Part shown: one piece after another, positions 3,820 to 34,427 of the stretch
Position numbering within the stretch: position 1 is the first letter of the stretch
Layout of the letters: every line of letters begins with the position of its first letter
DNA from: a virus
Virus record (IMG/VR): IMGVR_UViG_3300032116_000333
Coordinates: 1-48,304 of that record
Length of the DNA stretch: 48,304 nucleotides
Reading direction: 5' to 3' (one strand)
The notes under the pieces: model-generated
Database searches by the model: none
What the model saw: only the letters and a program-made list of their open reading frames with translations
What the model was told of the DNA's origin: nothing
Position numbers and translations under genes: made by a program

Positions 3820-3978
3820 CTACTTTACTGCCTTGCTAGTTGTTTTTATACCTGCTTGACGCAATTTTCTTGCACGGCAGTGGGCTTTTTGTGAAAATCC
3901 TTTAGGGCTGGAACAATCAATACTTTTCTTGTATTTGCTGCTCCATCCTTCAGAGATGAATTGTTTAAATGCAAGCAT
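3820..3978 (-). CDS. 52-aa basic protein with T4 internal-protein-like N-terminus
   Basis: A short ORF between two genes whose start overlaps the previous stop as TAATG. The protein begins MLAFKQFISEG, which matches the T4 internal-protein capsid-targeting pattern (M-x2-[FY]-x2-[FY]-[LI]-x-E, Glu at residue 10). After it comes a cysteine-containing core, SIDCSSPKGFSQKAHC, followed by Arg/Lys-rich sequence. I recall this core as a recurrent module in T4-like marine phage proteins, but I know no function. Alternatively it is a DNA-binding tail of a larger ancestral protein. Confidence 0.8.
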   Translation of the reverse strand: MLAFKQFISEGWSSKYKKSIDCSSPKGFSQKAHCRARKLRQAGIKTTSKAVK

Positions 3979-4262
3979 TATTTATTTTTATTCTTTTCCT
4001 GTAAGATCGCTAACTCGCGATCTGACATTCTATCCCAAATGCTTGGCGTTTCTTGATGTTTCTTTTCAACAATACCGTACATATGTTTTAACATATGTGC
4101 ACGAGTTGCATCGTCTTCTAATCTTTCTTTACAGAGTTCATCACTTGCTTTAGTTTTCCAAATTTCTGGAAACACACCATGTACTAATAAAATGAATGCG
4201 ATTTTCCATGCGCGAAACAAATGTTGAAAGTAACCATAACCGACTTCATTTAGGTGGGACAT
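3978..4262 (-). CDS. DUF6356-like small membrane-associated protein
   Basis: A 94-aa protein beginning MSHLNEVGYGYFQHLFRAW, followed by one hydrophobic stretch (IAFILLVHGVFPEIW) and a charged C-terminal half. The MSHLNEVG...YF.HL..AWK...IL.VHG.FP.IW pattern is that of the DUF6356 family (recalled). The ATG at 4262 is chosen over a GTG at 4271 because GGAAAG lies about 8 nt upstream of it. It overlaps the o-spanin gene by 17 nt and ends as TAATG with the next ORF. Its place beside the spanins suggests a lysis-period role, but this is not shown. Confidence 0.85.
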   Translation of the reverse strand: MSHLNEVGYGYFQHLFRAWKIAFILLVHGVFPEIWKTKASDELCKERLEDDATRAHMLKHMYGIVEKKHQETPSIWDRMSDRELAILQEKNKNK

Positions 4263-4422
4263 TTTTAACACTTTCCGCTTGAGGTGTAATTGTTTTTAAT
4301 TGTTTTGGTGGAGCCATCAATTCTTTTGGTGGTTCAGGCATTTCAATCTTCGGCACCAAACGAGTTAATGGATTTGCGCAACCAGCAAGAACCAAAAAAG
4401 AAAGAGCGATTATGTATCTCAT
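4246..4422 (-). CDS. Outer-membrane spanin lipoprotein (Rz1-like o-spanin)
   Basis: A 58-aa lipoprotein with a short signal peptide ending in the lipobox LVLAGC, followed by a proline-rich tail (PEPPKEL, APPKQL). A very short, Pro-rich lipoprotein directly after an i-spanin gene is the classic Rz1 arrangement. Its ATG overlaps the i-spanin stop codon (ATGA). The product would sit in the outer membrane and pair with the upstream i-spanin to fuse the two membranes at the last step of lysis. This implies a host with an outer membrane. Confidence 0.88.
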   Translation of the reverse strand: MRYIIALSFLVLAGCANPLTRLVPKIEMPEPPKELMAPPKQLKTITPQAESVKNVPPK

Positions 4423-4970
4423 TTCGCTTCTCCTTTCTTCCAAGGCATTTCAGGAAGTTTAATGTCTAAACCACGATCAGCGTTTTGTTTATCAACAGAT
4501 GCTTTAGTCTCAAGAATCCATGATTGCAAACTAACTAGTTGCTGCGCATTTTGCAAACAAATAGAATAATTAGCAAGAACAGTTCCGAGAGCCTGATTGT
4601 CTTTTACAACTGAATCAGTATCATCTGAAGCCATCTCAGGATTTAGTTCTTCACCTTTTACACTAGTATCGTGCAAGTAAACCCAACCATTTGTAAGATT
4701 AAACTTACCAGGAACTTGTTGTTCAGCAGCGTCGCGATAAATTGTTTCCTTTTGAGTCACAACTTTAATCTTATCAACATACTCAGTAACAACTCGTTCT
4801 TTGATGTTGGCTTGTTCTTTCTCAAGTTCAATTTTTAACTGCTCTGCTTCGTTCGCAGCTTTTTGAACCATAACTTCGCCAGCGTCAGATCCTTTTTTAT
4901 AGCCTGCAGCAAATGCGCCGCCAACTAAAAGAACCACTGCAAGGATCTTATATGGTAATGGTATAAGCAT
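4419..4970 (-). CDS. Inner-membrane spanin (Rz-like i-spanin)
   Basis: A 183-aa protein. One N-terminal transmembrane segment at about residues 8-23 (ILAVVLLVGGAFAAGY) is followed by a long charged helical region (about 33-80) suited to a periplasmic coiled coil. The C-terminal half contains NYSICLQNAQQLVSLQSW, a pattern I associate with T4-like phage Rz proteins. With the overlapping lipoprotein gene downstream it forms a two-component spanin for outer-membrane disruption. The ATG at 4970 precedes the membrane segment by seven residues, as expected. Confidence 0.88.
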   Translation of the reverse strand: MLIPLPYKILAVVLLVGGAFAAGYKKGSDAGEVMVQKAANEAEQLKIELEKEQANIKERVVTEYVDKIKVVTQKETIYRDAAEQQVPGKFNLTNGWVYLHDTSVKGEELNPEMASDDTDSVVKDNQALGTVLANYSICLQNAQQLVSLQSWILETKASVDKQNADRGLDIKLPEMPWKKGEAK

Positions 4971-4973
4971 AAT

Positions 4974-5141
4974 TTAATCTCTTGGCCAAATGTTACTTTC
5001 AACTGCATCATTCAACCACATGCTTGCTCCCAATAATTTTGAGTAAAGCCAATATGTGCCATTTGATAAAAACAAAAATAGAGAAGCAAGCCATTTAAAC
5101 AAATAAATGAATGGTATAGCGAATGGTTCTAAAATAAACAT
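4974..5141 (-). CDS. 55-aa hydrophobic protein, probable small membrane protein
   Basis: A short ORF that fills the gap between the nuclease and i-spanin genes. Its ATG overlaps the nuclease stop (TGATG) and it ends 3 nt before the i-spanin start. The sequence is rich in Phe, Leu, Ile and Trp, with one long hydrophobic stretch from about residue 7 to 27 and a second weaker one around 30-43. No signal peptidase site is evident. A holin, antiholin or spanin helper is possible from position; the sequence itself does not decide. Confidence 0.72.
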   Translation of the reverse strand: MFILEPFAIPFIYLFKWLASLFLFLSNGTYWLYSKLLGASMWLNDAVESNIWPRD

Positions 5142-5563
5142 CAGTTACACCAACTTGCTTTCTTTTCACCAAAGTATTGGCGAGCGTGACCGTTTTGAAT
5201 TAATAGTGCAGAGAGTCTCTGCCCATCAACAATTAGATCACCAAGGACGCGACCACCAAACTTATCGTGCTCTTTTAATTCAACTTTGATTGACTTTGCA
5301 TTTGCGACAAGATTTTTGGTAAACGCACTGGCTGCTTCAGCGGCTTTTGCTTCCTCTGGACAACCAGCACGCGCACCCTTTTCTGGAGTGTCAACACCAA
5401 GAACGCGCAAACTTAATTGCGGTTTCAAAGGTGCTGGCATAAATGGTGCTTCGAACACCACTGTATCTCCATCACTAACTTTCAATACTTTGAAGTCGTA
5501 AGGATTTGCAAGAGCAGCAGATGAGAAACTTAATGCGATAAGTGCAATAAACTTCTTCATCAT
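5141..5563 (-). CDS. Secreted thermonuclease (SNase/micrococcal nuclease family)
   Basis: A 140-aa protein with a clear signal peptide (MMKKFIALIALSFSSAALA, cleavage after about residue 19). The SNase fold marks are all present: DGDTV (31-35), RVLGVDTPE (53-61) and GGRVLGDL (103-110). R53, D58, E61 and R105 match the catalytic Arg35, Asp40, Glu43 and Arg87 of staphylococcal nuclease. Such enzymes are calcium-dependent and cut DNA and RNA. Export to the periplasm would keep it away from phage DNA until lysis, when it could degrade host nucleic acid or extracellular DNA. It overlaps the upstream EF-hand gene by 4 nt. Confidence 0.93.
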   Translation of the reverse strand: MMKKFIALIALSFSSAALANPYDFKVLKVSDGDTVVFEAPFMPAPLKPQLSLRVLGVDTPEKGARAGCPEEAKAAEAASAFTKNLVANAKSIKVELKEHDKFGGRVLGDLIVDGQRLSALLIQNGHARQYFGEKKASWCN

Positions 5564-5817
5564 ACTGCCTTCTTCTTGCGACCTTTCTTAACTTTCGCAG
5601 CCACTTCTTTTACGTCTGCAAGATCAACTTTTCCGTCTTTGTTGACGTCAAGAGCATTTGCAGCATGAGCCTTAGCATCAGCAGCAACTTCTTTAGCGGC
5701 AACAAGAACATCTTTGTGATCTACAGCACCGTCATTGTTAGCGTCTGGCTTTTTCCATAATTTCCAAACAATCCAACCCGCAACAACAACTAATAGTAAC
5801 ACAACTAATGTACTCAT
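5560..5817 (-). CDS. Membrane-anchored protein with two EF-hand/dockerin-like calcium loops
   Basis: An 85-aa protein with an N-terminal transmembrane segment (about residues 4-21). Two 12-residue loops follow, DANNDGAVDHKD (25-36) and DVNKDGKVDLAD (57-68). Both keep acidic or Asn residues at positions 1, 3, 5, 9 and 12, as in EF-hand or dockerin calcium sites. The tail is very basic (KKGRKKK). It immediately precedes a calcium-dependent-type nuclease and overlaps its start. Calcium binding is well supported by sequence; the partner and role are unknown. Confidence 0.85.
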   Translation of the reverse strand: MSTLVVLLLVVVAGWIVWKLWKKPDANNDGAVDHKDVLVAAKEVAADAKAHAANALDVNKDGKVDLADVKEVAAKVKKGRKKKAV

Positions 5818-5834
5818 TATCTTCTCCTGTTATA

Positions 5835-6074
5835 TTAGGCAACAGGTGGTTTTTTTGGTGCAAACTTTTCTGCAACCGTTGTACCAAGACCACCCAACAC
5901 GATCATCATCATTGAGTCGTACATAAACTTCTCAACAACGAATCCCCAAAACAAATTCAATACGAATGCAAGTGACACCAAGAATGCCGCTAAAAACGTA
6001 ATGACTCGCTTTGATGAAACCGAACCGTTTTCACCGTCCGATAGCATTGATTTTAAATTTGCTAATAGATTCAT
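5835..6074 (-). CDS. Two-helix membrane protein, candidate holin
   Basis: A 79-aa protein: a short polar N-terminus containing SVSSKRVITF, a transmembrane segment at about 24-48, a short loop, a second hydrophobic stretch (about 54-67), then EKFAPKK. The SSKR...F...EKF layout with two membrane segments is common among small phage holin-like proteins. A strong AGGAG lies 6-7 nt before the ATG. Its position at the head of the nuclease/spanin group supports a lysis role. The membrane protein at 20509-20922, next to the endolysin, is the competing holin candidate. Confidence 0.75.
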   Translation of the reverse strand: MNLLANLKSMLSDGENGSVSSKRVITFLAAFLVSLAFVLNLFWGFVVEKFMYDSMMMIVLGGLGTTVAEKFAPKKPPVA

Positions 6075-6225
6075 TTTTGTCTCCTAATACATTTTTTGCA
6101 AAGTTTACAAAATTCATATACTTGATCGCGACGTTATAGTCGTGGGTCAGTATAAGAACCCGATTGCGAAAACTCACAATATATCGCTTAGATGCATTGC
6201 GGAGGCATAATGTTTCCATTATCAT
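6031..6225 (-). CDS. Possible 64-aa protein of unknown function (doubtful)
   Basis: This ORF fills the otherwise empty 150-nt gap between the coiled-coil membrane gene and the candidate holin, and overlaps the holin start by 44 nt. Its ATG lies 3 nt after the previous stop. The sequence is basic and has no recognisable motif or strong membrane segment. The spacing is what a real gene would show here. The overlap with a gene that has its own strong ribosome site, and the lack of any familiar pattern, keep confidence low. Confidence 0.35.
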   Translation of the reverse strand: MIMETLCLRNASKRYIVSFRNRVLILTHDYNVAIKYMNFVNFAKNVLGDKNESISKFKINAIGR

Positions 6226-6228
6226 TTC

Positions 6229-6768
6229 TTATTTAGCCAAAGGATTTTCCCAAGCCTTTTGAATCTTTTCATCAACTTTCTTCTCTAGTTCTTTCAATTT
6301 AGCGTCTGTTTCGCGTTCGATCGCTCTCAATCGGGCTGACATTTCGCGGTCTGTGACGCCGACAAATCCGCGGACTTCCTTATCGAGTTCGCGATTACGT
6401 CTTTCGGCTGCATCTACATCGGCTTGAAGGCTATCAATATCGCCTTTTAGATCTGAACGAACGTCGCGGAGAATATCGCCGCTTTCGTCGACCATGACGA
6501 CTGCATTATCGACGCGCTCTTCCATCTTGGTGATGCGTTCGTTGATGGCTGATAAATCTGGAGCAACGTACTCTTGAATCTGTTGCTTCATATCCATATA
6601 ATCTTTATAGAACTCGAAGGCTCCATAAAGACCACCAAGAACCGTGGACACAATACCGCCAGCGATCATAAGTTTTGCTGGTGTGAAACTGTAACCGCCA
6701 ATGCTGATTACTGTATTTGGGTCAACCGCTGCTTCTAACTTGTCGACCTTCTCGTCTAAATCGCTCAT
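6229..6768 (-). CDS. Coiled-coil protein with one membrane segment
   Basis: A 179-aa protein. A short acidic helix (1-15) is followed by a hydrophobic segment (about 32-50, LMIAGGIVSTVLGGLYGAF) and then a long charged coiled coil (about 55-175) rich in Glu, Arg, Asp and Lys. I recall similar proteins in T4-like marine phages next to the 6793-7236 type gene. No enzymatic motif is present. It could be a membrane-tethered spacer or virion-associated protein; nothing decides. Confidence 0.82.
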   Translation of the reverse strand: MSDLDEKVDKLEAAVDPNTVISIGGYSFTPAKLMIAGGIVSTVLGGLYGAFEFYKDYMDMKQQIQEYVAPDLSAINERITKMEERVDNAVVMVDESGDILRDVRSDLKGDIDSLQADVDAAERRNRELDKEVRGFVGVTDREMSARLRAIERETDAKLKELEKKVDEKIQKAWENPLAK

Positions 6769-6792
6769 CTATTTGCTCCTTGTTTTTATACT

Positions 6793-7236
6793 TTATCTCG
6801 TTATAATATAAACAAATCCAAATATTCCAATTGCAAACATAACAAATAAAATCCCGATGCAGATCATCAGTGTAATTTCTTCTTGCCTTTGCGCGGCTTC
6901 AATTTCAGCGCGTCGTCTTGCTTGCGCTGCTGCTAATTCCATCTGCGCATGCATTTTCTGAAACTTCACCCAATCATCCCATAATCCAGGGCGCCCAGCA
7001 ATCAGCATATAGTCTTTGAGTTCTCTTTCCTTTCTTCGTACTTCTTCTAATGCGAAAAATTCTTCTAGTCGGCTACGCTCATTTGCAGGTGTTTCAATAA
7101 CTTTCTTTTCTAACTTTCGTTTACCTTCAAAGAAACTTCCTAATTGACCTGCACACTCACCTAATTCTCTGCCGTTAGAGACAACCTCCTTGATAACAGC
7201 ATATGCAGCATTGATTGCTGCGAGTTCTGCTAACAT
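6793..7236 (-). CDS. Conserved-type phage helical protein with C-terminal membrane segment
   Basis: A 147-aa, mostly helical protein. The middle contains the patterns LGSFFEGKRKLEKK, LEEFFALEEVRRKERELK and GRPGLWDDWVKFQ, which I recognise as a recurrent family in T4-like marine phages without known function. An Ala/Gln/Arg-rich helix leads to a C-terminal transmembrane segment (about 124-145). Its ATG overlaps the stop of the large secreted protein upstream (TAATG), so the two are probably translationally coupled. Confidence 0.83.
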   Translation of the reverse strand: MLAELAAINAAYAVIKEVVSNGRELGECAGQLGSFFEGKRKLEKKVIETPANERSRLEEFFALEEVRRKERELKDYMLIAGRPGLWDDWVKFQKMHAQMELAAAQARRRAEIEAAQRQEEITLMICIGILFVMFAIGIFGFVYIITR

Positions 7237-11377: not shown

Positions 11378-11424
11378 TTTCTCTCCTGACTTTTATGTCT
11401 TTTAGTATAACAAAAACATAAATT

Positions 11425-11448
11425 ATAGTTTCTGCACTCGGAAACTAT
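11425..11448 (-). promoter_or_regulatory. 8-bp hairpin in the 5' leader of the Asn/Thr-rich protein gene
   Basis: Arms at 11425-11432 and 11441-11448 are perfect inverted repeats (atagtttc / gaaactat) around an 8-nt loop. The hairpin lies between the late-promoter box at 11497-11504 and the ATG at 11377, so it would be transcribed in a leader of about 110 nt. Sequence downstream on the minus strand is U-rich but interrupted, so it is not a clean terminator. It may protect the mRNA end or modulate translation. Confidence 0.5.
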
Positions 11449-11496
11449 GTAAATCAGCAGTTAAATGACAAACGTCAATTCTTTAGTAATTATACC

Positions 11497-11504
11497 TATT
11501 TATA
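11497..11504 (-). promoter_or_regulatory. T4-type late promoter box (TATAAATA)
   Basis: The minus strand reads TATAAATA exactly, the known -10 element of T4 late promoters recognised by gp55-containing polymerase. It lies in the largest intergenic space of the window (11378-11551) and points to the secreted-protein group at 11377-6793. No upstream -35 element is expected for this class. Confidence 0.7.
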
Positions 11505-11508
11505 ATGC

Positions 11509-11524
11509 CAACGGTTTTCCGTCG
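11509..11524 (-). repeat. Short hairpin upstream of the late promoter
   Basis: The minus strand forms a 6-bp stem (CGACGG / CCGTTG, one G-U pair) closed by an AAAA loop, about 27 nt beyond the stop codon of the LamG fibre gene. It could slow polymerase or protect the fibre mRNA 3' end. No U-run follows it directly, so it is not called a terminator. The remaining bases of 11378-11551 show nothing else I can support. Confidence 0.35.
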
Positions 11525-11551
11525 CTTTATTTTAAGATGCAAAAAACGTAC

Positions 11552-14767: not shown

Positions 14768-14775
14768 TTGAGCCT

Positions 14776-15147: not shown

Positions 15148-15169
15148 TTAATCTTCCTTTGTTTTTTGA

Positions 15170-15177: not shown

Positions 15178-15180
15178 TTA

Positions 15181-22123: not shown

Positions 22124-22129
22124 TTACAA

Positions 22130-23458: not shown

Positions 23459-23459
23459 T

Positions 23460-24395: not shown

Positions 24396-24416
24396 GCGAT
24401 TATCCTCAGTAACTAA

Positions 24417-24950
24417 TTAAACGCCTTTGAGCGTTGTAGCAACTTTCCAATTTAACTTGGAAAATGCTTCGATGTTATTTTGCAAAAAATTTGAGAAACC
24501 AATTTCGCCAGCGGCTTCTGCTGCAGCGTATACGGTTTTCAATTCACGAACTAGTTTTGATAGTTCGTCGTTTAGATTTGCAAGCATCTGACGTGGCTCG
24601 AGCATTGCTGAAGTGTCTTCAACAACTGAAGATTTACGAGCAAGAGTTGCTGGTGAGAGCATTACATATCCGCCGAGAATACGAATGTGCTCAGCATGAT
24701 TATCTACTGTGCCGTAAAGACCTTCGTAAACTTCACCAAATAGTGCGTGGTATTGTGGGAAGTTTGCGCCGTCGATGTTTAGGTGATAGGTATGTGCCTT
24801 CAAATAAACGCCGAAAATGTCAACAAGAGCCTTGTCAGCCATGCTTACAAGACCTGCTTTTTGAACTTCAACGTCTTCTTTTAGTTTCGTAGCCATAACA
24901 GCCTTCGCTGCGCCAGCCACTGAAAGTAATGATTTATCCTTAATGAACAT
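24417..24950 (-). CDS. Dps-like ferritin-fold protein
   Basis: A 177-aa protein whose residues about 35-170 follow the Dps (miniferritin) pattern: YLKAHTYHLNIDGANFPQYH, then GTVDNHAEHIRILGG. H56, H68, D83 and E87 match the intersubunit ferroxidase ligands H51, H63, D78 and E82 of E. coli Dps; the D67 equivalent is Gly with a Glu beside it. Known Dps proteins form 12-mers that oxidise iron with peroxide and often coat DNA. Here a longer N-terminal arm (about 30 residues with several Lys) could bind DNA or direct packaging. A late-promoter-like box lies 29 nt upstream, so expression with structural genes is likely. Confidence 0.82.
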   Translation of the reverse strand: MFIKDKSLLSVAGAAKAVMATKLKEDVEVQKAGLVSMADKALVDIFGVYLKAHTYHLNIDGANFPQYHALFGEVYEGLYGTVDNHAEHIRILGGYVMLSPATLARKSSVVEDTSAMLEPRQMLANLNDELSKLVRELKTVYAAAEAAGEIGFSNFLQNNIEAFSKLNWKVATTLKGV

Positions 24951-24978
24951 TATAGTTTACTCCTGGTTAGGTACGTTA

Positions 24979-24986
24979 TATTTATT
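24979..24986 (-). promoter_or_regulatory. Late-promoter-like box (AATAAATA)
   Basis: The minus strand reads AATAAATA, overlapping the stop codon of the 820-aa gene and placed 29 nt before the Dps-like ATG. It fits the NATAAATA form of T4-type late promoters and could give the Dps-like gene and its followers a separate late transcript. Confidence 0.45.
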
Positions 24987-27444
24987 TGTCGCCAAATTCA
25001 CGCTCAAATGCCTCGTTGACATCTACTGACTCACGACGCAAATCCTTATCGGCTGTGTGGTAGGTTTTGCCCTTTGTAATATAGGAATTTACACGAGCAT
25101 GACCCCACTGCTGTGGCGTGGTTCCTGGACGATGTCCAGAATTCCAAGCCGCAACGCCACGATTATAAACCTTTCTTAAAGTGCCAAGCGAAATGCCCGA
25201 CTTTCTCGCTTTATCGGCAAGTGACTTACCTGCTGATTCTTCCATCGTGCCCATTGCGGCTTGATGAATATGGCGATTTTGATGATGAATTACACGAGTA
25301 TCGCGAATGCGCCGCTCACGTTCTGTCTTTTTAGTAATTGCAGCATTATCAGTCATTTGCTCAGCAACGCGTGGCAATTCACGATAGGCTTTTGCTAATC
25401 CCTTTGAAGGAAGTTTCTTTGCAGCCTCACGACCCATTTGTAGTGCAGATCCACCAAATCGAACTTTACCGCTGATTGATGCATTCACGCCAGCCTGACG
25501 CAATACCTTTTTCTTGGCTTCTGCGTTTGCTTTATTGCGTTCATCAATTTGTTCTACGCTTTCATATGCAGCAACTGTATGACGGTGAATGACTGGTCCT
25601 GTTTGTTGAGGTTTCGCGACTCGCGTTTGTCTTTCAATAGTTGAGAATACAGCGCGCATATGTTTGTGGCTAACTGCTGGTTTCTTTTTTGCAACAGGTT
25701 TCTTTCGTAGAAAGGATAAGAAACCTTCAAATTGTTCGACTTCTTCGTTTGTCTTAGCGACTTGTTTTTTATCATATTCTTTGCGAGCCTGAGTCAGCAT
25801 TTCCTCGCCACGCTTACGGCTGGCATCGCTTGCAGTTTTTTCTCTGTCAAATGCGCGTTGTAATTTGACGGCTGCACTCATGCGCTTTGAGCCTTCATCC
25901 ACTTGCTCGGCTTCTTCTTTCATTTGATTAATGTATGATTTGAATTTGTCAGCAACAGTATCCCCTTTATGTCTGCTTATGTTGACAGACTTACCATGCA
26001 AACTACCACGGACTGTGTCATCGTCCTTGTCATGTTCTAGCCAGCCAACTTCTTTATTTCCAACAGAGACACTAAAGTGCCGCATCATTGGGTTTGCTCT
26101 TGAGCCTTTGAATACAGGAGACTCTTTAGGCTCAATTTTATATCCACGAGCCTCATCCACTTGCTCGACTTCTTCAAAATGAGCCTTCATGTGTGCTTCG
26201 GTGTCTTTCTTGGTTTGATTTGGACCAAGACCACCAAGTTTTGTCATGCGGCGAATATATTTTTTAGAAGCGGCAGCTGCACGAGCATTCTTATCTCGAT
26301 TCAAGAAGTTCTTGACATCAGATGATTTTGGGCGAGCGGCTGCTTCATAATCGAAGCGCATGTTGGCTTCATCAACCTGCTCGACTTCTTCTTTTACTTT
26401 TTTATATTGTTTTTGCAATATTTTCAATGCACCTGATTTAACTTCATCGCGTTTAACTGGATTCGCTTTTTTTCCTAATGCTAATCCTTCAGCACCACGA
26501 CTTGAAGATGGTTGAGATTTATCCATTTCATCGAGTGCAACTTCATGTAAGCGAACGTTGCTTACATGTGTTTTAAATATTGGGTAATAGTCATCACCAC
26601 GACCTAGTGTACTGCGCTTATAATCGCTGCGGAAATAAACATGACCACCTTCAACCTTTTCAACTTTACCAGTATTTTGACCACCTTTAATAGTTGAAAT
26701 GTGATCGCCGACCTTTGGTTTATAATCTGCCATCTTTTCTTCACCCATATGTTTGAAGTATTGAACTTGTCTTTCGCGCTTCATTGCGCCAGCCTTTGTG
26801 TCATAAGTTCCAAGATTGCGTCCAGTCTTTTTAGAAACAAGACGAAACTTACCATCAACCTTTACGATTGTTTCATCTAACTCTACGGACTCGTCCATTT
26901 TTGGACTGATTCCTTTATATTCTCTTTTAACACCTTCGCCGTCCCAATAAGCGCAGCACATTCTTTCTGTCACAAAGTCATGAATGTCCTCGTGATTGCA
27001 ATATGCTTTTATCTTAACAACTGCCTTTCCTGGCAATGTAACAAGATCAGCATGTTTAGACATTTCAACGTATGCTTCGTTTGGCGCTTTCAATCCACCA
27101 TATTCGTTCAATTCGCTCTTGTCGACTGGCTTCTCTGATTCCTTTACCCAGTGAATACAGTTAGCGCAATTTGTTCCTTCAATCTTTTCTGGTGCACCTT
27201 CAACAACAATACCAATTTGTTCACCGAACATTTTATGAAAACGTTTTGTGTATTTGCTTGGTTTTGTTTTTGCTGTTGCATCACCAGGTGCAGGTTTGTA
27301 TGCGCGTGGATCGCTGTCGGAAAGTTTTGCTGCCTTTTTCCAATGCGCAGCACGAGCCTTTGCAGTAGATTTACTTAAACCTGCCACATACTTCTTTGGC
27401 AATCCTGATTCTTTATCTTTTGCAACAGGAGGAAACTTTTTCAT
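24982..27444 (-). CDS. 820-aa modular polyprotein-like protein with repeated EEVEQVDE motifs
   Basis: A string of small basic modules separated by acidic motifs. Modules: residues 1-80, a basic segment (GLPKKYVAGLSKSTAKARAAHW) resembling DUF5824-type sequence; 90-170, a Cys cluster (C93, C96, C149, C163, C164) that may bind metal; 192-232, a VDGKFRLVSKKTGRNLGTYD module; 240-300, a KOW-like module (KPKVGDHISTIKGGQNTGKV); and 738-800, a SGISLGTLRKVYNRGVAAW...GTTPQQWGHARVNS module that recurs in marine phages. Separators include VVEG (80-83), KIEG (87-90), ELDET (188-192), EQVDEA (355-360 and 427-432), EQVDEG (513-518), EQFEG (570-574) and EQIDER (631-636). These resemble prohead-protease sites. 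Function unknown. Confidence 0.82.
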   Translation of the reverse strand: MKKFPPVAKDKESGLPKKYVAGLSKSTAKARAAHWKKAAKLSDSDPRAYKPAPGDATAKTKPSKYTKRFHKMFGEQIGIVVEGAPEKIEGTNCANCIHWVKESEKPVDKSELNEYGGLKAPNEAYVEMSKHADLVTLPGKAVVKIKAYCNHEDIHDFVTERMCCAYWDGEGVKREYKGISPKMDESVELDETIVKVDGKFRLVSKKTGRNLGTYDTKAGAMKRERQVQYFKHMGEEKMADYKPKVGDHISTIKGGQNTGKVEKVEGGHVYFRSDYKRSTLGRGDDYYPIFKTHVSNVRLHEVALDEMDKSQPSSSRGAEGLALGKKANPVKRDEVKSGALKILQKQYKKVKEEVEQVDEANMRFDYEAAARPKSSDVKNFLNRDKNARAAAASKKYIRRMTKLGGLGPNQTKKDTEAHMKAHFEEVEQVDEARGYKIEPKESPVFKGSRANPMMRHFSVSVGNKEVGWLEHDKDDDTVRGSLHGKSVNISRHKGDTVADKFKSYINQMKEEAEQVDEGSKRMSAAVKLQRAFDREKTASDASRKRGEEMLTQARKEYDKKQVAKTNEEVEQFEGFLSFLRKKPVAKKKPAVSHKHMRAVFSTIERQTRVAKPQQTGPVIHRHTVAAYESVEQIDERNKANAEAKKKVLRQAGVNASISGKVRFGGSALQMGREAAKKLPSKGLAKAYRELPRVAEQMTDNAAITKKTERERRIRDTRVIHHQNRHIHQAAMGTMEESAGKSLADKARKSGISLGTLRKVYNRGVAAWNSGHRPGTTPQQWGHARVNSYITKGKTYHTADKDLRRESVDVNEAFEREFGDK

Positions 27445-28895
27445 TTGCTTTCTTCTTGTATTGCTGTTGTCGTTAAACCAATTCCACCTGATGGTACTGC
27501 GCCCATGCGACCATCAAAGTAACTGCTCATTCCCATTCTTGCGACAGAAAGAGGAGAGATATCTTTCAATTTCTTTTTCTTAGACTTCTTATTTTCTTCT
27601 TCGCCAATGGTTGGCTCAGCAGACCTGGCAACGGCAATGCCGCCCCCTCTTGCATCTCCCTGACTACTTTCAAGGGGATTCTGTTCCTTTCGACGAATAT
27701 TTTTCTTTTTATCTTCGTCAGCACTTGTTTCAGCTTCCGCATAACTCTTGACATCATTTGTGACCTGTCCTGGTGTTAAGTGCTTCATAAAATTTGAAGC
27801 ATCGTTTGTCCCTGCTTCCAAAACTCTTTCATCTAAAAATCTTTCAACACCTTCTGACAATTCACGAAGCCATCCGCCAATTTCTGCTTTGCGGCTTTCT
27901 TCTGCAATAATAATATTTTCTGAATTGTCATAGATGAAGAATGTTTTAAATTCTTCAAAAAATGCATTCATGTTCTTTAGTGATTCATCGTAACGATTCT
28001 TACGAACTTCTTCATTAAATGTTTTCGAACCTTTCATCAAACGGAAGTTATTACGATTGCGCGAAACTTCATCTGATGTATAAACGAAAACCATGGCAGT
28101 ATCATAACCCATGGCTTCTAAAATTGTTTTTGCAATTTCAATCTTTCCTTTATTTTCGGCAGTACCGTTAATAATTACAGAAGGATAATCTTCTAGTTCA
28201 AGAAGATTCTTTTGTTCTAAAATTGCTTTATGCAGTTTATCTAAACTTAATTCAATTAAATTATGTTCATTGAATACAGAATGAATCAAGAAATCTTTAC
28301 CGCTTCCTGGTCCACCAACAAGAAATACTGCTTTATAACTTTCTTTGAGTTTAGTCATTCCTGCTTTTACCTTATCGTGTAGTTCAGCGCCTAATTTTTT
28401 ATCTTTATAATGAGATATGAAATCATTACGTTTGCCTGACGAAACCAAACCGCGAAGTTTTGAGGCTGACATACCCTCCGCACCTTCTGAGTCTGGATCA
28501 CGATGTCCTGCAGAAACAACTTCAACTTTCTTAATTTTTGGGAATTCTTTTGCGCGATATTTGTTTAGTAATTCGTGATATTCTGGAACGCGATCTGAGC
28601 CTGCAATTAGGGTAACGTGAGTATGCCCCTTACTTTCCAAATGCTGCATTGCATGAATAAGAGTACGAACCTTTGAATTTGAAACGACGTTTGCTTTTGG
28701 AAACAAACGACGCATCGCTGAAACTTTATCGTCGTGGGATAGCGGATTGCTACGACTATCTTGAGTGTGTGTAGGGAAAATGTAGTGAGCGCCGCCTGTT
28801 TTTTCGGCGTGCTCCATTGCGGAGTTTACTACTTTACCGTGACCTTCTTCTGTTGGAGGGTTAAAACGACCCCACACTAGTGTTGCTTTACTCAT
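27441..28895 (-). CDS. HIGH-type nucleotidyltransferase fused to a P-loop kinase-like domain
   Basis: A 484-aa protein. The N-terminal domain (about 1-150) has GRFNPPTEEGHGKVV, the (H/T)xGH nucleotide-binding motif of the NMN adenylyltransferase/cytidylyltransferase superfamily, and a later SASKLRG (143-149) like the family's ISSTxxR. The next domain (about 185-360) has a Walker A motif GGPGSGKD (194-201) and follows small-molecule or polynucleotide kinase layout. The last 120 residues are polar and contain VLEAG, a possible protease site. NadR-type enzymes join similar activities for NAD synthesis, but the substrate here is undetermined. Start at ATG 28895 gives the standard beta-strand opening; an upstream start at 28916 is less likely. 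Confidence 0.87.
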   Translation of the reverse strand: MSKATLVWGRFNPPTEEGHGKVVNSAMEHAEKTGGAHYIFPTHTQDSRSNPLSHDDKVSAMRRLFPKANVVSNSKVRTLIHAMQHLESKGHTHVTLIAGSDRVPEYHELLNKYRAKEFPKIKKVEVVSAGHRDPDSEGAEGMSASKLRGLVSSGKRNDFISHYKDKKLGAELHDKVKAGMTKLKESYKAVFLVGGPGSGKDFLIHSVFNEHNLIELSLDKLHKAILEQKNLLELEDYPSVIINGTAENKGKIEIAKTILEAMGYDTAMVFVYTSDEVSRNRNNFRLMKGSKTFNEEVRKNRYDESLKNMNAFFEEFKTFFIYDNSENIIIAEESRKAEIGGWLRELSEGVERFLDERVLEAGTNDASNFMKHLTPGQVTNDVKSYAEAETSADEDKKKNIRRKEQNPLESSQGDARGGGIAVARSAEPTIGEEENKKSKKKKLKDISPLSVARMGMSSYFDGRMGAVPSGGIGLTTTAIQEESK

Positions 28896-28922
28896 AGTTT
28901 TACCATCTGTTGGCAATAAGAT

Positions 28923-28930
28923 TATTTATT
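28923..28930 (-). promoter_or_regulatory. Late-promoter-like box (AATAAATA)
   Basis: The minus strand reads AATAAATA over the stop codon of the 28926-30092 gene, 28 nt before the ATG at 28895. Form and spacing match the other boxes at 15170 and 24979. Confidence 0.45.
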
Positions 28931-30092
28931 TTTTTCTTCCTTTTAGCAAATTAGAACGAGCAAATTCTGCACGATTTACTAATTTTGTTGGATGTCCATT
29001 ATGTACCATAACAAACCCTTCTGGCTCGGTTTTTTTACCGTCTATATGGTGTTCAAATTCAGTCGAGGAAGATAGAGTTTGCACTAGTGCATTTTTCGCT
29101 TTTTGAATAGCATGATGAATCTTAAACGCTTGGGCTAAATGTTTACCATTTCTGTCGACTTCGTTGTGAAATGCATTTAAAAGTTCGTGTTGTTTGAGTT
29201 TACCTTTTGGCGTTTTCTTCTTTTCGATCTCGCCTTCGTAACGATTGGAGACGAAAGAACGATAACCCTCAACCGTTGGAGTCGTATTTTCACGAACGGT
29301 GTGATTAATATAAAGGTCTAAATGATCTTTATGGGCTCGAGCCACGTGATACATCTCTGGATGAGAGGCTTGGTGGTGGCGAATTGCTGAATTTAGGTAG
29401 GTGCGAAACTCTTTTTGATTCTTTTCAGAGTGTTCGACTGGCTTTACGCCTGGATGAATAAGGTGAACGCTTGGGTGAGACCCAAATTTATCGTGATCTA
29501 CGTCAAACCCTGCAGTCATATTTGCAAGATCAGGACCGTGATACTTTGTGTGAACAACTAATCCGACGTGGGCTTTTGCGATCTTTTGACCGTGTTCTGA
29601 GTCTACAGGGGTAGAATAGGTGATTGTATTTGGAGTAAAATGATATTTACCGCCTTTTTTAGCCACATCACCCTTTGTATACATTAGGTCGCCTTGATAA
29701 ACGCCATGTTTTGGGGCGACTTTAGGTAAATGTCGAAGCGCAGTTTTAAGTTTTTCGACTAATCCAGGTGCGTGACCGTGATTGCGATCGATGTCGGCTT
29801 CACTATAATTGATTTTTGGATTAACGTTGAAAGCCGACTTACTGGCAACAAAGAACTTGCCCGTTTGTGGATGACGACCAAACACGATAGAAGGGGATCC
29901 ATCGTACTTGGTCGTCACTTTTGTAGTATTGAACGCACCGTTAAGTTTGTCGTTTACTGCTGAGAGAGCATCTACCGTATGGTGAAAACCTGTTTCACCG
30001 CTATGTAGAAAGTTATCTTCTGCGTGTGTTAAGTGCTTTAAATGCTTAACTGGTTCTATTTCTTCTTGTAAATAGGTGCTAAACGATAACAT
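28926..30092 (-). CDS. Ligase-like covalent nucleotidyltransferase (DUF6267-type) with capsid-targeting-like N-terminus
   Basis: A 388-aa protein. It starts MLSFSTYLQEE, matching the T4 internal-protein targeting pattern with Glu at residue 10. The core then shows, in order, the motifs expected of the DNA/RNA ligase and capping-enzyme superfamily: K62-Y-D-G (motif I, the adenylated lysine), GVYQGDLM (130-137, motif III-like), GLVVHT (177-182, IIIa-like), EGFVMV (358-363, motif IV) and KLVN (370-373, motif V). The family name DUF6267 is from memory. Self-nucleotidylation at K62 is a strong inference; whether it seals nucleic acid is unknown. It is followed by the nucleotidyltransferase/kinase gene after 30 nt. 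Confidence 0.85.
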   Translation of the reverse strand: MLSFSTYLQEEIEPVKHLKHLTHAEDNFLHSGETGFHHTVDALSAVNDKLNGAFNTTKVTTKYDGSPSIVFGRHPQTGKFFVASKSAFNVNPKINYSEADIDRNHGHAPGLVEKLKTALRHLPKVAPKHGVYQGDLMYTKGDVAKKGGKYHFTPNTITYSTPVDSEHGQKIAKAHVGLVVHTKYHGPDLANMTAGFDVDHDKFGSHPSVHLIHPGVKPVEHSEKNQKEFRTYLNSAIRHHQASHPEMYHVARAHKDHLDLYINHTVRENTTPTVEGYRSFVSNRYEGEIEKKKTPKGKLKQHELLNAFHNEVDRNGKHLAQAFKIHHAIQKAKNALVQTLSSSTEFEHHIDGKKTEPEGFVMVHNGHPTKLVNRAEFARSNLLKGRKK

Positions 30093-30128
30093 TTAAAAAC
30101 ATACTCTCCGCTCTGTGGGATATGAGTA

Positions 30129-30135
30129 TATTTAG
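30129..30135 (-). promoter_or_regulatory. Weak late-promoter-like box (CTAAATA)
   Basis: The minus strand reads CTAAATA in the 50-nt gap upstream of the ligase-like gene, 37 nt before its ATG. It departs from TATAAATA at two places, so it is only a candidate. Confidence 0.3.
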
Positions 30136-30142
30136 TTTCTTT

Positions 30143-30928
30143 TTAATTACTCTTCATTTTTGCAAGAGCAGCAGTCAACGCCTCACGAACTGGACGCATA
30201 GCAGGATGCGCTGGGATCGTGCAGGTAGAACGAGAAGCCAAAGTGGCTTCTTTGAATTCTTCTGGCGTAAACCATTGAACGTTATCAATACCCATTAACT
30301 CCACGAGTTCGTGCATATTGACCGAACCTTCGTTTACAAGATTCACAGGACCTGATTCGCCGTCTTCAATAAGATCGCATGCAACACGAACGGCTTCGTC
30401 AAGGTCAGTAAGAGAGTTTTGACCTGCGTCGATAAGTTTAGCGTTCTTGGCGTAATTCATCACCTTGGTTAGGTAATTCTTTTTCTCATTAAGACCAGTA
30501 AATGGCATGCGAATACGGAAAACAAGAGCACGATCCTTCAAATAAAGATCCGAAACGCCCTTGGTTACTGAATAGATGCTACCGAAGTAATTTGGATCAT
30601 CATTTACATGAGAGATCTCACCTTGGTAAATGCAGCCGCTCGAGAAGTGAGCCAAACGTGGCTTGTGCCAATTTTCTTCGCAGGATTTGTAAAGTAATGC
30701 TGGAAAAATGGCATTAGCGTAGGTGGTTCCTTCGCGATCTAATTCACAAGCATCGACATTTGGCGATCCTGTCATACCTGCACAGTTCACAACCCAATCA
30801 TAAACGCCATCTGCTGCTTCTGCCAACGCATTCTTATGATCGGAAATCGTCACAACATGATTGCGATTCATAAGTTCCGTTAAAACTTTTTTACCTGTCC
30901 ATCCACGCCCAACAACTAAAATTTTCAT
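30143..30928 (-). CDS. dTDP-sugar epimerase/reductase-like SDR (RmlD or NRS/ER-like)
   Basis: A 261-aa extended short-chain dehydrogenase. The NAD(P)-binding GxxGxxG-type start is VVGRGWTGKKV (5-15). NCAGMTGSPNVDACE, FSSGCIYQGE and FGSIYSVTKG (catalytic Tyr-x3-Lys) follow, then RIRMP. The GSPNVD.CE, SSGCIY and LRIRMP details match the plant-type NRS/ER enzyme, which does both 3,5-epimerisation and 4-reduction of the keto-sugar, better than bacterial RmlD (recalled pattern). Placed directly after RmlA and RmlB, it would finish a dTDP-rhamnose-like sugar. ATG at 30928 is chosen; a start four codons upstream is possible. Confidence 0.85.
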   Translation of the reverse strand: MKILVVGRGWTGKKVLTELMNRNHVVTISDHKNALAEAADGVYDWVVNCAGMTGSPNVDACELDREGTTYANAIFPALLYKSCEENWHKPRLAHFSSGCIYQGEISHVNDDPNYFGSIYSVTKGVSDLYLKDRALVFRIRMPFTGLNEKKNYLTKVMNYAKNAKLIDAGQNSLTDLDEAVRVACDLIEDGESGPVNLVNEGSVNMHELVELMGIDNVQWFTPEEFKEATLASRSTCTIPAHPAMRPVREALTAALAKMKSN

Positions 30929-30936
30929 AGCACACC

Positions 30937-31815
30937 TCAATTATGTTTTCCCAGTTTAATGATCTTCTGCAAATATTTACCATAGTCCGACTTAATATAC
31001 TTGTTTGCCGCTTCTTGAAGTTGGTATTCTGTAATCCAAGCATTACGATATGCAACCTCTTCAGGGCAAGCAATCATTGTTCCAGTTCGTCTTTGAATTG
31101 AACCAACAAAGGTTGATGCCTCTGCAAGTGATTCAAACGTACCAGTATCAATCCAAGCAATACCACGATTCAAATATTCAACTTTACAATCGTGATCTTT
31201 CATATAAAGATTATTAATGTCTGTGATTTCAAGTTCACCGCGAGCAGACGGTTTGATTTGCCACGCATAATCTACGACTTTATTGTCATAGAAATATAGA
31301 CCAGTTACAGCATAGTTTGTTGGCGCAACGGCTGGTTTCTCGAGAATTGCTTTTGGATCACCATGCTCATCAAGTTCAAGAACGCCGAAACGTTCTGGGT
31401 CTTGTACATGATATGCGAACAAAGTGCAACCTGTATTGTTCTTTGCGTAATTGAAACGGTTGATCAAATCATTACCGTAAAAAATATTGTCACCAAGAAC
31501 AAGAGCAACATCATTCTTACCAATCCAATCTTGAGCGAGACGGAAGCACTCGGCAATTCCGTTTGGCTTTTCTTGAATCATGTAATCAATTTTCAAACCC
31601 CACTGCGAACCATCTTTCAACAAACGTTTGAATTGTTCGCTATCATTTGGTGAGTTGATGATTAAAATATCGCGAATTCCCGCTAACATCAAAGTCACAA
31701 GAGGATAATAAACCAATGGCTTATCATAAACTGGTAGCAATTGTTTCGATGTCACTTCAGTACATGGATACAAACGAGTACCCATACCACCTGATAGAAT
31801 AATCCCTTTACGCAT
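30937..31815 (-). CDS. rmlA: Glucose-1-phosphate thymidylyltransferase RmlA
   Basis: It makes dTDP-glucose from dTTP and glucose-1-phosphate. The N-terminal nucleotide-binding motif GGMGTRLYP, KQLLPVYDKP, the central GDNIFYG with metal-binding Asp, EKP and ITDINNLY are all present. At 292 aa the protein has the usual RmlA length. It overlaps the RmlB gene by 8 nt and precedes the reductase by 8 nt, forming a three-gene dTDP-sugar operon. It draws on the dTTP pool that ThyX of the same phage feeds. Confidence 0.95.
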   Translation of the reverse strand: MRKGIILSGGMGTRLYPCTEVTSKQLLPVYDKPLVYYPLVTLMLAGIRDILIINSPNDSEQFKRLLKDGSQWGLKIDYMIQEKPNGIAECFRLAQDWIGKNDVALVLGDNIFYGNDLINRFNYAKNNTGCTLFAYHVQDPERFGVLELDEHGDPKAILEKPAVAPTNYAVTGLYFYDNKVVDYAWQIKPSARGELEITDINNLYMKDHDCKVEYLNRGIAWIDTGTFESLAEASTFVGSIQRRTGTMIACPEEVAYRNAWITEYQLQEAANKYIKSDYGKYLQKIIKLGKHN

Positions 31816-32758
31816 TATAATACTCCAAAGTTTTAATTAAGCCATCATTAATATTCGTTTTTGCTTGCCAACCCAAGTCATGAGCAATTTTACTCGCATC
31901 CATTGAGTATCTAAAATCATGACCTTTACGATCAGGAACAAAATTAATCCAGTTTTGATACATGTGAACTGGCTTACCCATCAGATCAAGGATGAGTGTA
32001 ATCATATCAAGATTACTCATCTCAACGCCACCACCGATGTTATAACGCTCACCTGACTTAAAGTTTTGACCAATAGTCAGCAATGCATCGCAGTGATCTT
32101 CAACAAACAACCAGTCGCGAACATTTTGACCTGTGCCATAAACTGGAATTGGTGTATTGTTCTTAATGTGACGAATCACAGTTGGAATGAATTTTTCTGA
32201 GTGTTGTCGCGGACCGTAGTTATTTGAGCAATTTGTCACAACTGCTTCAATGTTATGCGTGTTTACATAAGCGCGAACTAAATGATCGCTGGCTGCTTTG
32301 GTTGCAGAATACGGATTGCGTGGATTGTATGGTGTATTTTCTGTGAACGCTGGATCATCATGACCCAAACTACCATATACTTCATCAGTAGAAACGTGAA
32401 CTAATTTCCCTCCGTACTTTTTGATACACTTGAGGATATTGTGAGTTCCGTTAATATTTGTATCCAAGAAAACGTCGTCGCCGCGAATGGAATTATCCAC
32501 ATGAGATTCAGCAGCAAAATGGAAAGTAATATGCGGTTCGTAATCATGATACAAACTCTCCAAATGTCCGAAGTTGCGAATGTCGCAACGTTTGAGTTTG
32601 AGTCGCCAATCGTTCCAATAACCGTCTAAATTGCTTTCGTTTGCCGCATATGAACAATTGTCAATAACGATGATCTCATCTTCAGGATACTTTTTCAGAT
32701 GAGAGATTACGAAATTAGAACCAATAAAACCCAAACCGCCAGTCACAAATGTAGTCAT
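31808..32758 (-). CDS. rmlB: dTDP-glucose 4,6-dehydratase RmlB
   Basis: It converts dTDP-glucose into dTDP-4-keto-6-deoxyglucose, the common precursor of rhamnose and many deoxy sugars. Visible marks are TGGLGFIGSNF (NAD-binding), AAESHVDNSI, STDEVYG (catalytic Asp-Glu), YSATKAASDHL (Tyr-x3-Lys), NNYGPRQ.SEKFIP and GTGQNVRDWLFVEDHC. At 316 aa it is of standard length. First gene of the dTDP-sugar operon. Confidence 0.95.
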   Translation of the reverse strand: MTTFVTGGLGFIGSNFVISHLKKYPEDEIIVIDNCSYAANESNLDGYWNDWRLKLKRCDIRNFGHLESLYHDYEPHITFHFAAESHVDNSIRGDDVFLDTNINGTHNILKCIKKYGGKLVHVSTDEVYGSLGHDDPAFTENTPYNPRNPYSATKAASDHLVRAYVNTHNIEAVVTNCSNNYGPRQHSEKFIPTVIRHIKNNTPIPVYGTGQNVRDWLFVEDHCDALLTIGQNFKSGERYNIGGGVEMSNLDMITLILDLMGKPVHMYQNWINFVPDRKGHDFRYSMDASKIAHDLGWQAKTNINDGLIKTLEYYNA

Positions 32759-32781
32759 AATTCACCCAAGTTATAATTAAA

Positions 32782-34044
32782 TCATGCTGATGTAGCAATC
32801 AACGAAGTTAGGAGTTTTCCTTTTTCTATATAGTTTCTAATATAGGTAGACCCATCAGGTTTACCTTCTGCTTTCACACGCACTTCCAAAAATGATTCTT
32901 CATCTTTGTCTTCAATAATCATTCTTGGTTTACCGCTGGAGTCAATAATCTTTACTTTCAAATCCAAATTTTGAATTGCGCCCATCACTTTACCGAAATC
33001 ATAAACTTTAGCAGCACCACCAGCAAGTTGAACCAAAGTTACATTTTCTTCACCGCTTGTTGCAAACTTTTGTATACCACTACCCAAATTGTTTAACAAA
33101 GTCGTTTTAGTTCTTTTGTTTTTTAGCATAGTGTTCATTTTGTTTGACACATAATCATATACTAGATACACAGCCTTTTCAACTTTTTTCTTCTTTAAAA
33201 GGTTAGTGTAATCGTCTTCCAATTCTGAAACATCAATACCTGCAAGTTTATTCCAAAGTGTAATTTGTTTTTCAAACTCAGAACCGCCAACCTGACCGAA
33301 CTGTTTAACATCATCTGCTTTTAGAGAGATATTAACGTTTGTTGCTTTACCATCGACCTTAACTTTCACGTCAACCTTTGTGCCTTTCTGGTCACCGACG
33401 CCATCACTGATTACATCAATTACATTTTCTTGATTGTTTTCGTAAAGTAGTTTAGACCATTTCGTTATGGTTTGACCGTTTGCGTATTTTGCTGCCGCAT
33501 CAAAAAGATCACTGTACGAGTCCCATGAACTTTGATCTAAAAAGAATTTCATATTGGATTCAGCAAGCGACAAATAGAATTGAACTGTATCTTTGATTTT
33601 GGGATTCTTATTTGGTGATGGGAATGATTTTTCTACAACCTTACCATTTTTAGTTGAAAGGGAGGAAATGATTTCCTTTACTTTACTTGAGTCAATCGGT
33701 TGATTCTTATTTACAAATCGAGCAGCAATTGCTGCGGCAAGAATACCTTCAGCAATGTCGCCTTTGTTACCCTTGTCTTTAGGTTTATCAATAGCACCAA
33801 TAGCAACCAAACCGCTAGTTGTTTCTAGGATCAAATCTAAGGCTGCTCTTTCTGTACTGGATGATGATGCAAGTTGCGAGTACTTTTTCAATACTTGCTT
33901 GTTTTTATCGTTATTTTTTATAATGACAGTTTTGATGCCCGCTTTTATGCCAGTTCTACTATTCATAGAAGAACCAACAACACTTAAAAGACCAGCAGTG
34001 TATTTGGCTAACTGTCCTTTACTTGTAGTTCTTAATTGCGCCAT
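32782..34044 (-). CDS. Conserved-type phage protein, possible nuclease fold, function unknown
   Basis: A 420-aa protein. It contains GDIAEGILAAAIAARF (about 114-129), a central beta region with TKVDVKVKVDG and NISLKADDVKQFGQVGGSEFEKQ (shown in part), and a C-terminal FLEVRVKAEGKP...YIRNYIEKGKLL. The alternation D...(I/V)SLKA resembles the D-x(n)-(E/S)xK core of PD-(D/E)xK nucleases, and I recall restriction-endonuclease-like annotations for marine phage homologues, but this is weak. It lies between the metallopeptidase pair and the dTDP-sugar genes. Confidence 0.78.
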   Translation of the reverse strand: MAQLRTTSKGQLAKYTAGLLSVVGSSMNSRTGIKAGIKTVIIKNNDKNKQVLKKYSQLASSSSTERAALDLILETTSGLVAIGAIDKPKDKGNKGDIAEGILAAAIAARFVNKNQPIDSSKVKEIISSLSTKNGKVVEKSFPSPNKNPKIKDTVQFYLSLAESNMKFFLDQSSWDSYSDLFDAAAKYANGQTITKWSKLLYENNQENVIDVISDGVGDQKGTKVDVKVKVDGKATNVNISLKADDVKQFGQVGGSEFEKQITLWNKLAGIDVSELEDDYTNLLKKKKVEKAVYLVYDYVSNKMNTMLKNKRTKTTLLNNLGSGIQKFATSGEENVTLVQLAGGAAKVYDFGKVMGAIQNLDLKVKIIDSSGKPRMIIEDKDEESFLEVRVKAEGKPDGSTYIRNYIEKGKLLTSLIATSA

Positions 34045-34427
34045 TACTCATAAATTTTAGGATTTTGCTTCCCATAATTCCTCATTATAACACCAGCAAC
34101 GCTATTTGCTTCATTCTCAAAGTCACTGCCAGTTTCGCCAGCATTTCGGGTTAAAATTCCCTTCAAGTTTTGCTGATGATGAACCATTTCGTGAGCCAAA
34201 GTGCGAAGCACGTCAGCTAGGTGACGACCACCTGTATTTAAATAGATTTTCTTTTCGCTTGGACTATACCCACCGAAACTTTTGTTTTCAATTGCAACGT
34301 TTTTGTCTGGGATCAACTCAAGTGCAGGCATTTCTTCAAGTTGCAGGAAGTCGCGAACATAGTTCATAAAGTCATCTATGTGCTCGGTCTTTTCTTCTTC
34401 CTTCAGGTACTGTTTGAACTTCAACAT
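34044..34427 (-). CDS. HExxH metallopeptidase-like protein with capsid-targeting-like N-terminus
   Basis: A 127-aa protein. It starts MLKFKQYLKEEE, again the T4 internal-protein pattern with Glu at residue 10. The zinc motif H79-E80-x2-H83 (LAHEMVHHQQ) is followed by a Glu-rich downstream helix (GSDFENEANSVAG, E104 or E106 as third ligand). This is the minimal gluzincin-like arrangement and a recurrent small metallopeptidase in T4-like marine phages. Its start overlaps the end of the next HExxH gene by 56 nt. Confidence 0.85.
   Translation of the reverse strand: MLKFKQYLKEEEKTEHIDDFMNYVRDFLQLEEMPALELIPDKNVAIENKSFGGYSPSEKKIYLNTGGRHLADVLRTLAHEMVHHQQNLKGILTRNAGETGSDFENEANSVAGVIMRNYGKQNPKIYE

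Follow-up and report, generated by a model that had tools for sequence, protein, structure and literature searches.

The window analysed here is the whole of a 48,304-base virus record (IMGVR_UViG_3300032116_000333, positions 1 to 48,304), a fragment of a T4-like phage, and it encodes three proteins that begin with the same kind of ten-residue sequence. We read this sequence as a T4-type capsid-targeting sequence (CTS), that is, a detachable module borne by many unrelated and exchangeable cargo proteins (probability about 0.87). The three proteins are a small one with a Cys/His module, an RNA-ligase-like one of the family DUF6267, and a metallopeptidase-like one; the phage probably packs them into its head and delivers them along with its DNA, because the same tag marks enzymes found in the particles of related cyanophages. 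Script-made gene calling gave 67 genes, nearly all of them on the minus strand, and no head genes were found among the genes of this 48-kb fragment.

A sequence-only reading had located the three open reading frames without giving a strand; their positions were confirmed and all three lie on the minus strand (Table 1). The pattern that it had proposed, M-x2-F-x2-[YF]-[LI]-x-E with Glu at residue 10, was matched by exactly these three of the 67 genes. With the residue that follows, and with a slash for the predicted cut, the tags are MLAFKQFISE/G, MLSFSTYLQE/E and MLKFKQYLKE/E. All of them keep the positions that matter in the T4 CTS, namely aromatic residues 4 and 7, a Leu or Ile as residue 8, and Glu10. 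Internal protein III (IPIII) of T4 needs no more than its ten N-terminal residues to be packaged; targeting depends on residues 4 and 7, processing on 8 and 10, and the protease gp21 cleaves after [L/I]-x-E (PMC9026906).

Table 1. Tagged proteins of the window, their tags, and two further genes of interest
Feature	Position	Strand	Basis
Tagged protein of 52 residues, Cys/His module after the tag	3820..3978	-	sequence comparison, model
Tag MLAFKQFISE, codons 1-10 of the Cys/His protein, predicted cut before Gly11	3949..3978	-	
Tagged DUF6267/phrog_455 protein of 388 residues, RNA-ligase-like, Lys62 in KYDG	28926..30092	-	Pfam, PHROG, alignment, model
Tag MLSFSTYLQE, codons 1-10 of the DUF6267 protein, inside the low-confidence residues 1-17	30063..30092	-	
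Tagged HExxH metallopeptidase-like protein of 127 residues	34044..34427	-	DUF6782 match below the curated cut-off
Tag MLKFKQYLKE, codons 1-10 of the peptidase-like protein	34398..34427	-	
Candidate polyprotein of 820 residues with EVEQVDE-type linkers (V-D-E or I-D-E)	24982..27444	-	3 linker matches against 0.0005 expected by shuffling
Untagged neighbour with a cytidylyltransferase/NMNAT-like domain and a P-loop (zeta/AAA_33) kinase	27441..28916	-	Pfam, PHROG

The pattern was compared with shuffled sequence, as the earlier reading had suggested, and also with internal Met positions; it was far commoner at gene starts than in either. Across 13 records, 14 gene starts out of 2,271 matched, whereas the internal Met residues of these proteins, 8,319 in all, gave 1 match; a homologue present in several records was counted once for each. 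When residues 2-21 of each N-terminus of the window were shuffled 2,000 times, the mean was 0.0025 matches and the maximum 1, against 3 observed; at the internal-Met rate, the probability of at least three matches in 67 genes is about 9e-8 (Poisson). A weight matrix made from 31 tags, those of the window being left out, placed the three proteins at ranks 1 to 3 of 67 (scores 18.3 to 21.4, the next being -1.6). Orthologues carry related tags, for example, MLKYKQYLKE/Q and MLSFRNYLTE/E.

The likeness to T4 internal proteins, which the earlier reading had pointed out, was borne out by the T4 record, which gives MKTYQEFIAE for both ipIII and ipII. These two fit the functional positions and yet miss the strict pattern because they have Tyr, not Phe, at position 4. 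A second matrix, for which the first 82 records supplied 34 tags and to which T4 contributes background composition only, was applied to the 284 T4 genes; ipIII and ipII were tied at ranks 2-3 and ipI was at rank 5. As an observation apart, the top match in T4 was the unknown gp61.1 (NC_000866 18966-19130; L183), which starts MKTFKEFIKE/D and scored above the internal proteins. We propose gp61.1 as a candidate for a further small internal head protein of T4; the open-access literature passages available gave no mention of it in this role.

Published virion proteomics of relatives carries the argument further. The S-CREM2 table lists 52 virion proteins detected by mass spectrometry (PMC10665884 Table 3), of which 50 were matched to our own gene calls (145 and 174 were unmatched). 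The five top-scoring N-termini among the 228 gene calls of this phage are all in this table: gp154, a cytidylyltransferase; gp14, a kinase; gp6, an S-adenosylmethionine (SAM) hydrolase that belongs to the Pfam family S-AdoMet_lyase; gp136; and gp13. At a score of at least 5, 4 of 4 are virion proteins, compared with 50 detected among 228 (hypergeometric p=0.0021). In S-SM1 the sole tag match is SSM1_190, a member of T4-GC190, and T4-GC190 is reported in S-SM1 virions and as undetected in S-PM2 (PMC3037559); the S-PM2 homologue is untagged, though the older S-PM2 study missed other virion proteins as well. In S-SCSM1, a tagged nicotinamide mononucleotide adenylyltransferase (NMNAT) is annotated as a virion protein. 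When S-CREM2, S-SM1, and S-SCSM1 were pooled at a score of at least 5.1, 6 of 7 tagged proteins were in the virion, for which the base rates give roughly 3e-4. Meanwhile, S-CRM01 encodes a tagged protein kinase, SCRM01_130c, and a kinase is reported to have been detected in its virions (PMC10665884); presumably they are the same protein. The comparison leaves aside the S-CREM1 list (14 proteins, PMC9964418). Taken together, the CTS positions, the recovery of the T4 internal proteins, and the virion data of relatives strongly support the capsid targeting that the sequence-only reading had put forward.

S-CREM2 gp12 (OR473000 7704-10313) was considered as a further tagged protein and rejected: its tag-like stretch begins at residue 16, it scored -13, and it was not counted. 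This protein is listed among those found in virions and is annotated as Cas9; no Pfam family was found for it at E 0.01, and the annotation looks doubtful.

By analogy with T4, the aromatic residues 4 and 7 would dock the new protein onto the prohead core during head assembly, and the prohead protease gp21 (peptidase S77) would then cleave after Glu10 in the [L/I]-x-E site. The mature protein would remain in the head and enter the host with the DNA. For this phage we infer packaging, docking, cleavage, and ejection from T4. Judging by the enzyme families, the cargo may act in the host to repair RNA early on, to salvage NAD, and, through the S-AdoMet lyase, to counter restriction.

The range of proteins that bear the tag is wide. 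A score of at least 9 was reached by 103 distinct proteins out of 7,822 gene calls, a number that counts redundant loci. Single linkage, which joined families via fusion proteins, sorts them into 20 families, and a requirement of 50% mutual coverage gives 37, some with a domain in common. Pfam matches above the cut-off in this set were DUF6267, CTP_transf_like, AAA_33/zeta-type and adenylate kinases, S-AdoMet lyase, DUF6321, and DUF5661; one tagged protein has a protein-kinase match below the cut-off, and another, which shows a D-x-D-E-T motif and matches LNS2 weakly, reads as a putative HAD phosphatase. The set of cargo that is tagged varies from phage to phage. Three or four neighbouring genes in a row with tag scores above 5.1 were seen at L036 10001-14469 and L032 10001-13313, suggesting cargo operons.

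The bodies of the three window proteins had been described as unrelated, and this mostly holds. It fails in one respect: in L330 a homologue of the HExxH domain and the Cys/His module stand in one polypeptide, where the module is joined to the homologue of the window peptidase (37% identity over 108 residues) across L-P-E/T-W. By sequence, L379 has the peptidase and the module in the same arrangement, and in L317 the module is joined to a CTP_transf_like domain, so that these three fusions link elsewhere the types of cargo found in the window. Some peptidase homologues start MRLKALLNE, MLVKEILTE, or MKVTEILTE; this was considered as a second tag code and discarded, because in G009, the one such genome searched as a whole, the search expression found only one protein with a start of that kind. 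The window peptidase gene sits beside replication genes. Its start is overlapped by the end of a gene at 34372-35034 for a protein of 220 residues with a second H-E-x-x-H stretch (HEYRH), for which the Pfam and PHROG searches gave no match.

The Cys/His module has the sequence W-S-x-K-Y-K-K-S-I-D-C...H-C and 41 residues counted from the Trp. In the window copy there are 42 residues after the tag, of which 12 are Lys or Arg and 1 is acidic, and the predicted structure consists of two helices (pLDDT, the predicted local distance difference score, 78.4 overall, residues 1-6 being of low confidence). At least 595 related stretches were found in viral contigs and 80 loci were kept, as were 80 of 198 in another scan of relatives. 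The tag, at a score of at least 5.1, was present on 30 of these 80 module loci, 44 were untagged, and 6 fell outside the search expression and were not parsed. The module is also embedded within larger proteins. Of its 62 distinct contexts, a good number of which are related to one another, 59 have a Glu two residues before the Trp, and in the other three a Met is exactly there. The residue two before this Glu belongs to the set L/I/V/M/F in 56 of the 59 (Phe 25, Ile 14, Leu 8, Val 7, Met 2); the remaining three have Gln (2) or Tyr (1). On the other side, 38 of 42 distinct stand-alone modules have exactly 41 residues from Trp to stop, while 18 of 20 fused modules continue as [V/I/L/F]-x-E and one more as F-N-E, judged by eye. 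An observation on the tag itself is that the Cys-protein orthologue at G004:43108-43269 starts MKSFKTYIHD/AW, with Asp at position 10; in the T4 tag, Asp10 is described as allowing targeting and inhibiting processing (PMC9026906).

Glu at both borders is the pattern that a module released by a protease would show, with a loose match to the T4 rule. The looseness comes from two counts: the L/I of that rule is found at the border in only 22 of 59 contexts, and in short N-termini of the MKTFKQFQE type the border Glu is residue 9 in 16 of 28 distinct cases and residue 10 in 6. Both counts belong with the objections to a T4-type system, the rest of which are as follows. No protein of this phage, which is known from environmental DNA only, has yet been seen in a virion. 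A gene for S77 (gp21) had no match in the 48-kb window or in G004, G005, and G008, all of them fragments. In favour of such a system, the S77 match was present in 11 of 15 records (6 of 6 named phages and 5 of 8 IMG/VR relatives, the window being without) and in 4 of 6 further named phages, and the major capsid proteins of several relatives, judged by eye, have like sites, for example FLAE/A, FLSE/A, and LLTE/A. Against it, the match was present in just 6 of 15 records with the Cys/His module or the peptidase; several of the negatives are short, but at 173 kb (G014) and 266 kb (G015) two of them are hard to dismiss as fragments. S-PM2 has S77 and no tag match in 267 genes; HTVC008M has one weak match in 208 genes, its DUF6267 and NMNAT proteins being untagged; S-TIM5 is without S77 and has one weak match (8.5) in 214 genes; and S-CBWM1 has neither a tag in 224 genes nor S77, although its virion is reported to contain an NMNAT (PMC9602691). 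Virion association may thus come about otherwise, and these four phages indicate that the tag is neither universal nor the sole route into the virion. The idea that the tag rate tracks the protease was considered and dropped: S-CBWM1 (0/224) and S-TIM5 (1/214) are low, but so is the S77-bearing S-PM2 (0/267), and the cases are too few.

Within the proteomic data, the scores fail to separate detected from undetected S-CREM2 proteins over all genes (Mann-Whitney p=0.88), so that the signal lies only in the top tail; the authors of the virion studies leave contamination open (PMC10665884, PMC9602691), and a second tagged protein of S-SCSM1 is not marked as a virion protein. The tag was on only 5 of 30 peptidase loci examined, out of 50. 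Finally, it is a point in favour that the codons at fixed positions vary among 92 distinct tags (Phe4, TTT 58 and TTC 26; Glu10, GAA 75 and GAG 16), but the mean pairwise identity is 0.54 in DNA and 0.43 in protein, and these identities alone give no proof of selection on the protein.

These objections leave room for other explanations of the tag. The tagged proteins might serve head assembly or DNA condensation in the prohead core, host delivery being incidental. T4 IPIII mutants assemble heads more slowly (PMC9026906), and the Cys/His protein after its tag is small and very basic, as such a role would have it; however, many of the cargo proteins look enzymatic (ligase-like, CTP_transf_like/NMNAT, adenylate kinase, AAA_33 kinase, S-AdoMet lyase), with no evident role in head assembly, and the cargo differs among phages. 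We consider this explanation unlikely. There is only a slight chance that the tag works in some other way, for instance in translation initiation or membrane binding, as a degron, or by docking the protein to a replication complex. The location of the window peptidase gene and the short helix predicted with low confidence over residues 4-9 of the DUF6267 protein could be read in that sense, but Glu10 after [L/I]-x, the recovery of T4 internal proteins by the same matrix, and the virion proteins among the top matches speak against it. As for a chance likeness of three A+T-rich N-termini, the motif was indeed chosen by eye among the window genes; with the shuffles, the internal-Met controls, the ranking with the window left out, and the related tags on orthologues, its probability is negligible.

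Returning to the capsid-targeting reading, the largest of the three cargo proteins belongs to DUF6267 and phrog_455 (Pfam 4.5e-96, PHROG 1.2e-99), and K62, D64, G65, Q133, D135, E358, G359, V361, K370, and R374 are invariant in 25 sequences. These residues include those of motif I (K-x-D-G, with K62) and of motifs IV and V (E358-G-x-V, K370...R374) of the RNA ligase/covalent nucleotidyltransferase superfamily. The AlphaFold2 model has a mean pLDDT of 88.4; residues 1-17, which contain the tag, are below 50, and the tag lies outside the fold. In a second structural comparison, RNA and tRNA ligases filled rows 1-21, a single Naegleria protein accounting for 13 of these, and the rows included 6vt1_A (Z 9.0, root-mean-square deviation 3.8, 187 residues aligned) and T4 Rnl2, 1s68 (Z 7.5, deviation 4.0, 178 aligned). 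Foldseek alone gave a best E of 0.23, and the DUF6267 profile had no match below E 0.23 among the sequences of solved structures. With moderate confidence, the model and motifs make this protein an RNA-ligase-like nucleotidyltransferase.

In the window, as in many relatives, the DUF6267 gene adjoins a gene for an NMNAT-kinase, and homologues of the latter are elsewhere tagged or fused to DUF6267. Among 45 distinct DUF6267 cases, 7 are fused to NMNAT, all 7 of them tagged; in 15 split pairs the tag is on DUF6267 only in 5, on both in 5, on NMNAT only in 4, and on neither in 1 (HTVC008M); and 23 are without NMNAT nearby, 9 tagged and 14 untagged, many of the 14 scoring 5.0 against a threshold of 5.1. 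A coordinated tagging of the pair was considered and finds no support in these counts: at least one tag is present in 14 of 15 pairs, but independence predicts 2 of 15 untagged and 1 was seen. Adjacency and fusion make it possible that the ligase-like protein and the NMNAT-kinase are co-packaged as a complex.

Next to this pair lies the candidate polyprotein (24982-27444), whose linkers separate dissimilar segments and which ends in DUF5824. From its sequence it is possibly a polyprotein for the prohead protease and, as such, further head cargo. Adjoining it, at 24417-24950, is a gene for a ferritin-like domain protein (Pfam 2.4e-14; the PHROG label is DNA binding protein), possibly also a virion cargo.

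A broader picture can be drawn, and we hold it tentatively, with more doubt than trust. Aquatic T4-like phages would use one address code of about ten residues for an exchangeable head-borne kit whose core is an NMNAT, P-loop kinases, and a ligase-like protein, adjacent or fused to one another, with a peptidase, an S-AdoMet lyase, a protein kinase, or phosphatase-like proteins as extras in various phages. The Cys/His module would be excised inside the head from tagged proteins and polyproteins, as a new class of internal head peptide, and with this kit the phage would disarm restriction and restore RNA and NAD ahead of any expression of its genes. Three points weigh against this picture: the border fit is loose, some large records with the module have no S77 match, and the tags of the ligase-NMNAT pair are spread no differently from what independence gives.

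It is noted that the tag shares with the T4 CTS its length of 10, the aromatic residues 4 and 7, the aliphatic residue 8, Glu10, the unrelated bodies, and, in those relatives with an S77 match, the presence of the prohead protease. It differs in that position 4 is mostly Phe rather than Tyr, in that Ser, Glu, and Lys, besides Ala, are frequent after the cut, and in that the cargo includes enzymes, of up to 821 residues, besides small basic proteins. As to homology of the mature bodies to IPI, IPII, or IPIII, the Pfam and PHROG matches of the three window proteins were DUF6267/phrog_455, weak peptidase hits, or none, and no internal-protein family was among them. T4 Alt, a packaged and injected ADP-ribosyltransferase, is alike in being an enzyme cargo with a short propeptide cut by gp21, although its N-terminal propeptide has 7 residues (PMC9026906). 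For DarB of phage P1, too, N-terminal residues are enough for head entry, but more than 9 and at most 30 are needed, and the Dar N-termini are described as without consensus (PMC9024508). The giant phage SPN3US likewise ejects head proteins with propeptides cleaved by a gp21-like protease; these are mostly far longer, several exceeding 100 residues (PMC5694885). Polyvalent proteins of phages and conjugative elements are multidomain, thought to be packaged and injected, and include metallopeptidase domains, but their descriptions, as far as the available passages go, give no common ten-residue tag (PMC5512222), whereas here the modules are bordered by hydrophobic-x-Glu.

It has already been suggested that, by means of the CTS, T4-like phages can bring diverse proteins into the head (PMC9026906), and cyanophage virions have been reported to contain NMNATs, kinases, and a SAM hydrolase (PMC10665884, PMC9602691). 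No paper describing this tag in cyanophages or in uncultivated relatives was found in the open-access literature, subscription papers being mostly outside the search. As far as that search shows, the principle is known from T4, and what is new is the breadth of the enzyme cargo, the link to cyanophage virion enzymes, and the doubly bordered Cys/His module. A shared and experimentally understood tag gives a reason for the presence of enzymes in cyanophage virions, and the sequence alone could predict which proteins a T4-like phage may inject, so that unknown genes of aquatic phages become testable as cargo. The finding also enlarges the stock of tags and cargo available for delivering proteins in phage heads, and it points to a ready-made counter-defence that would act ahead of transcription.

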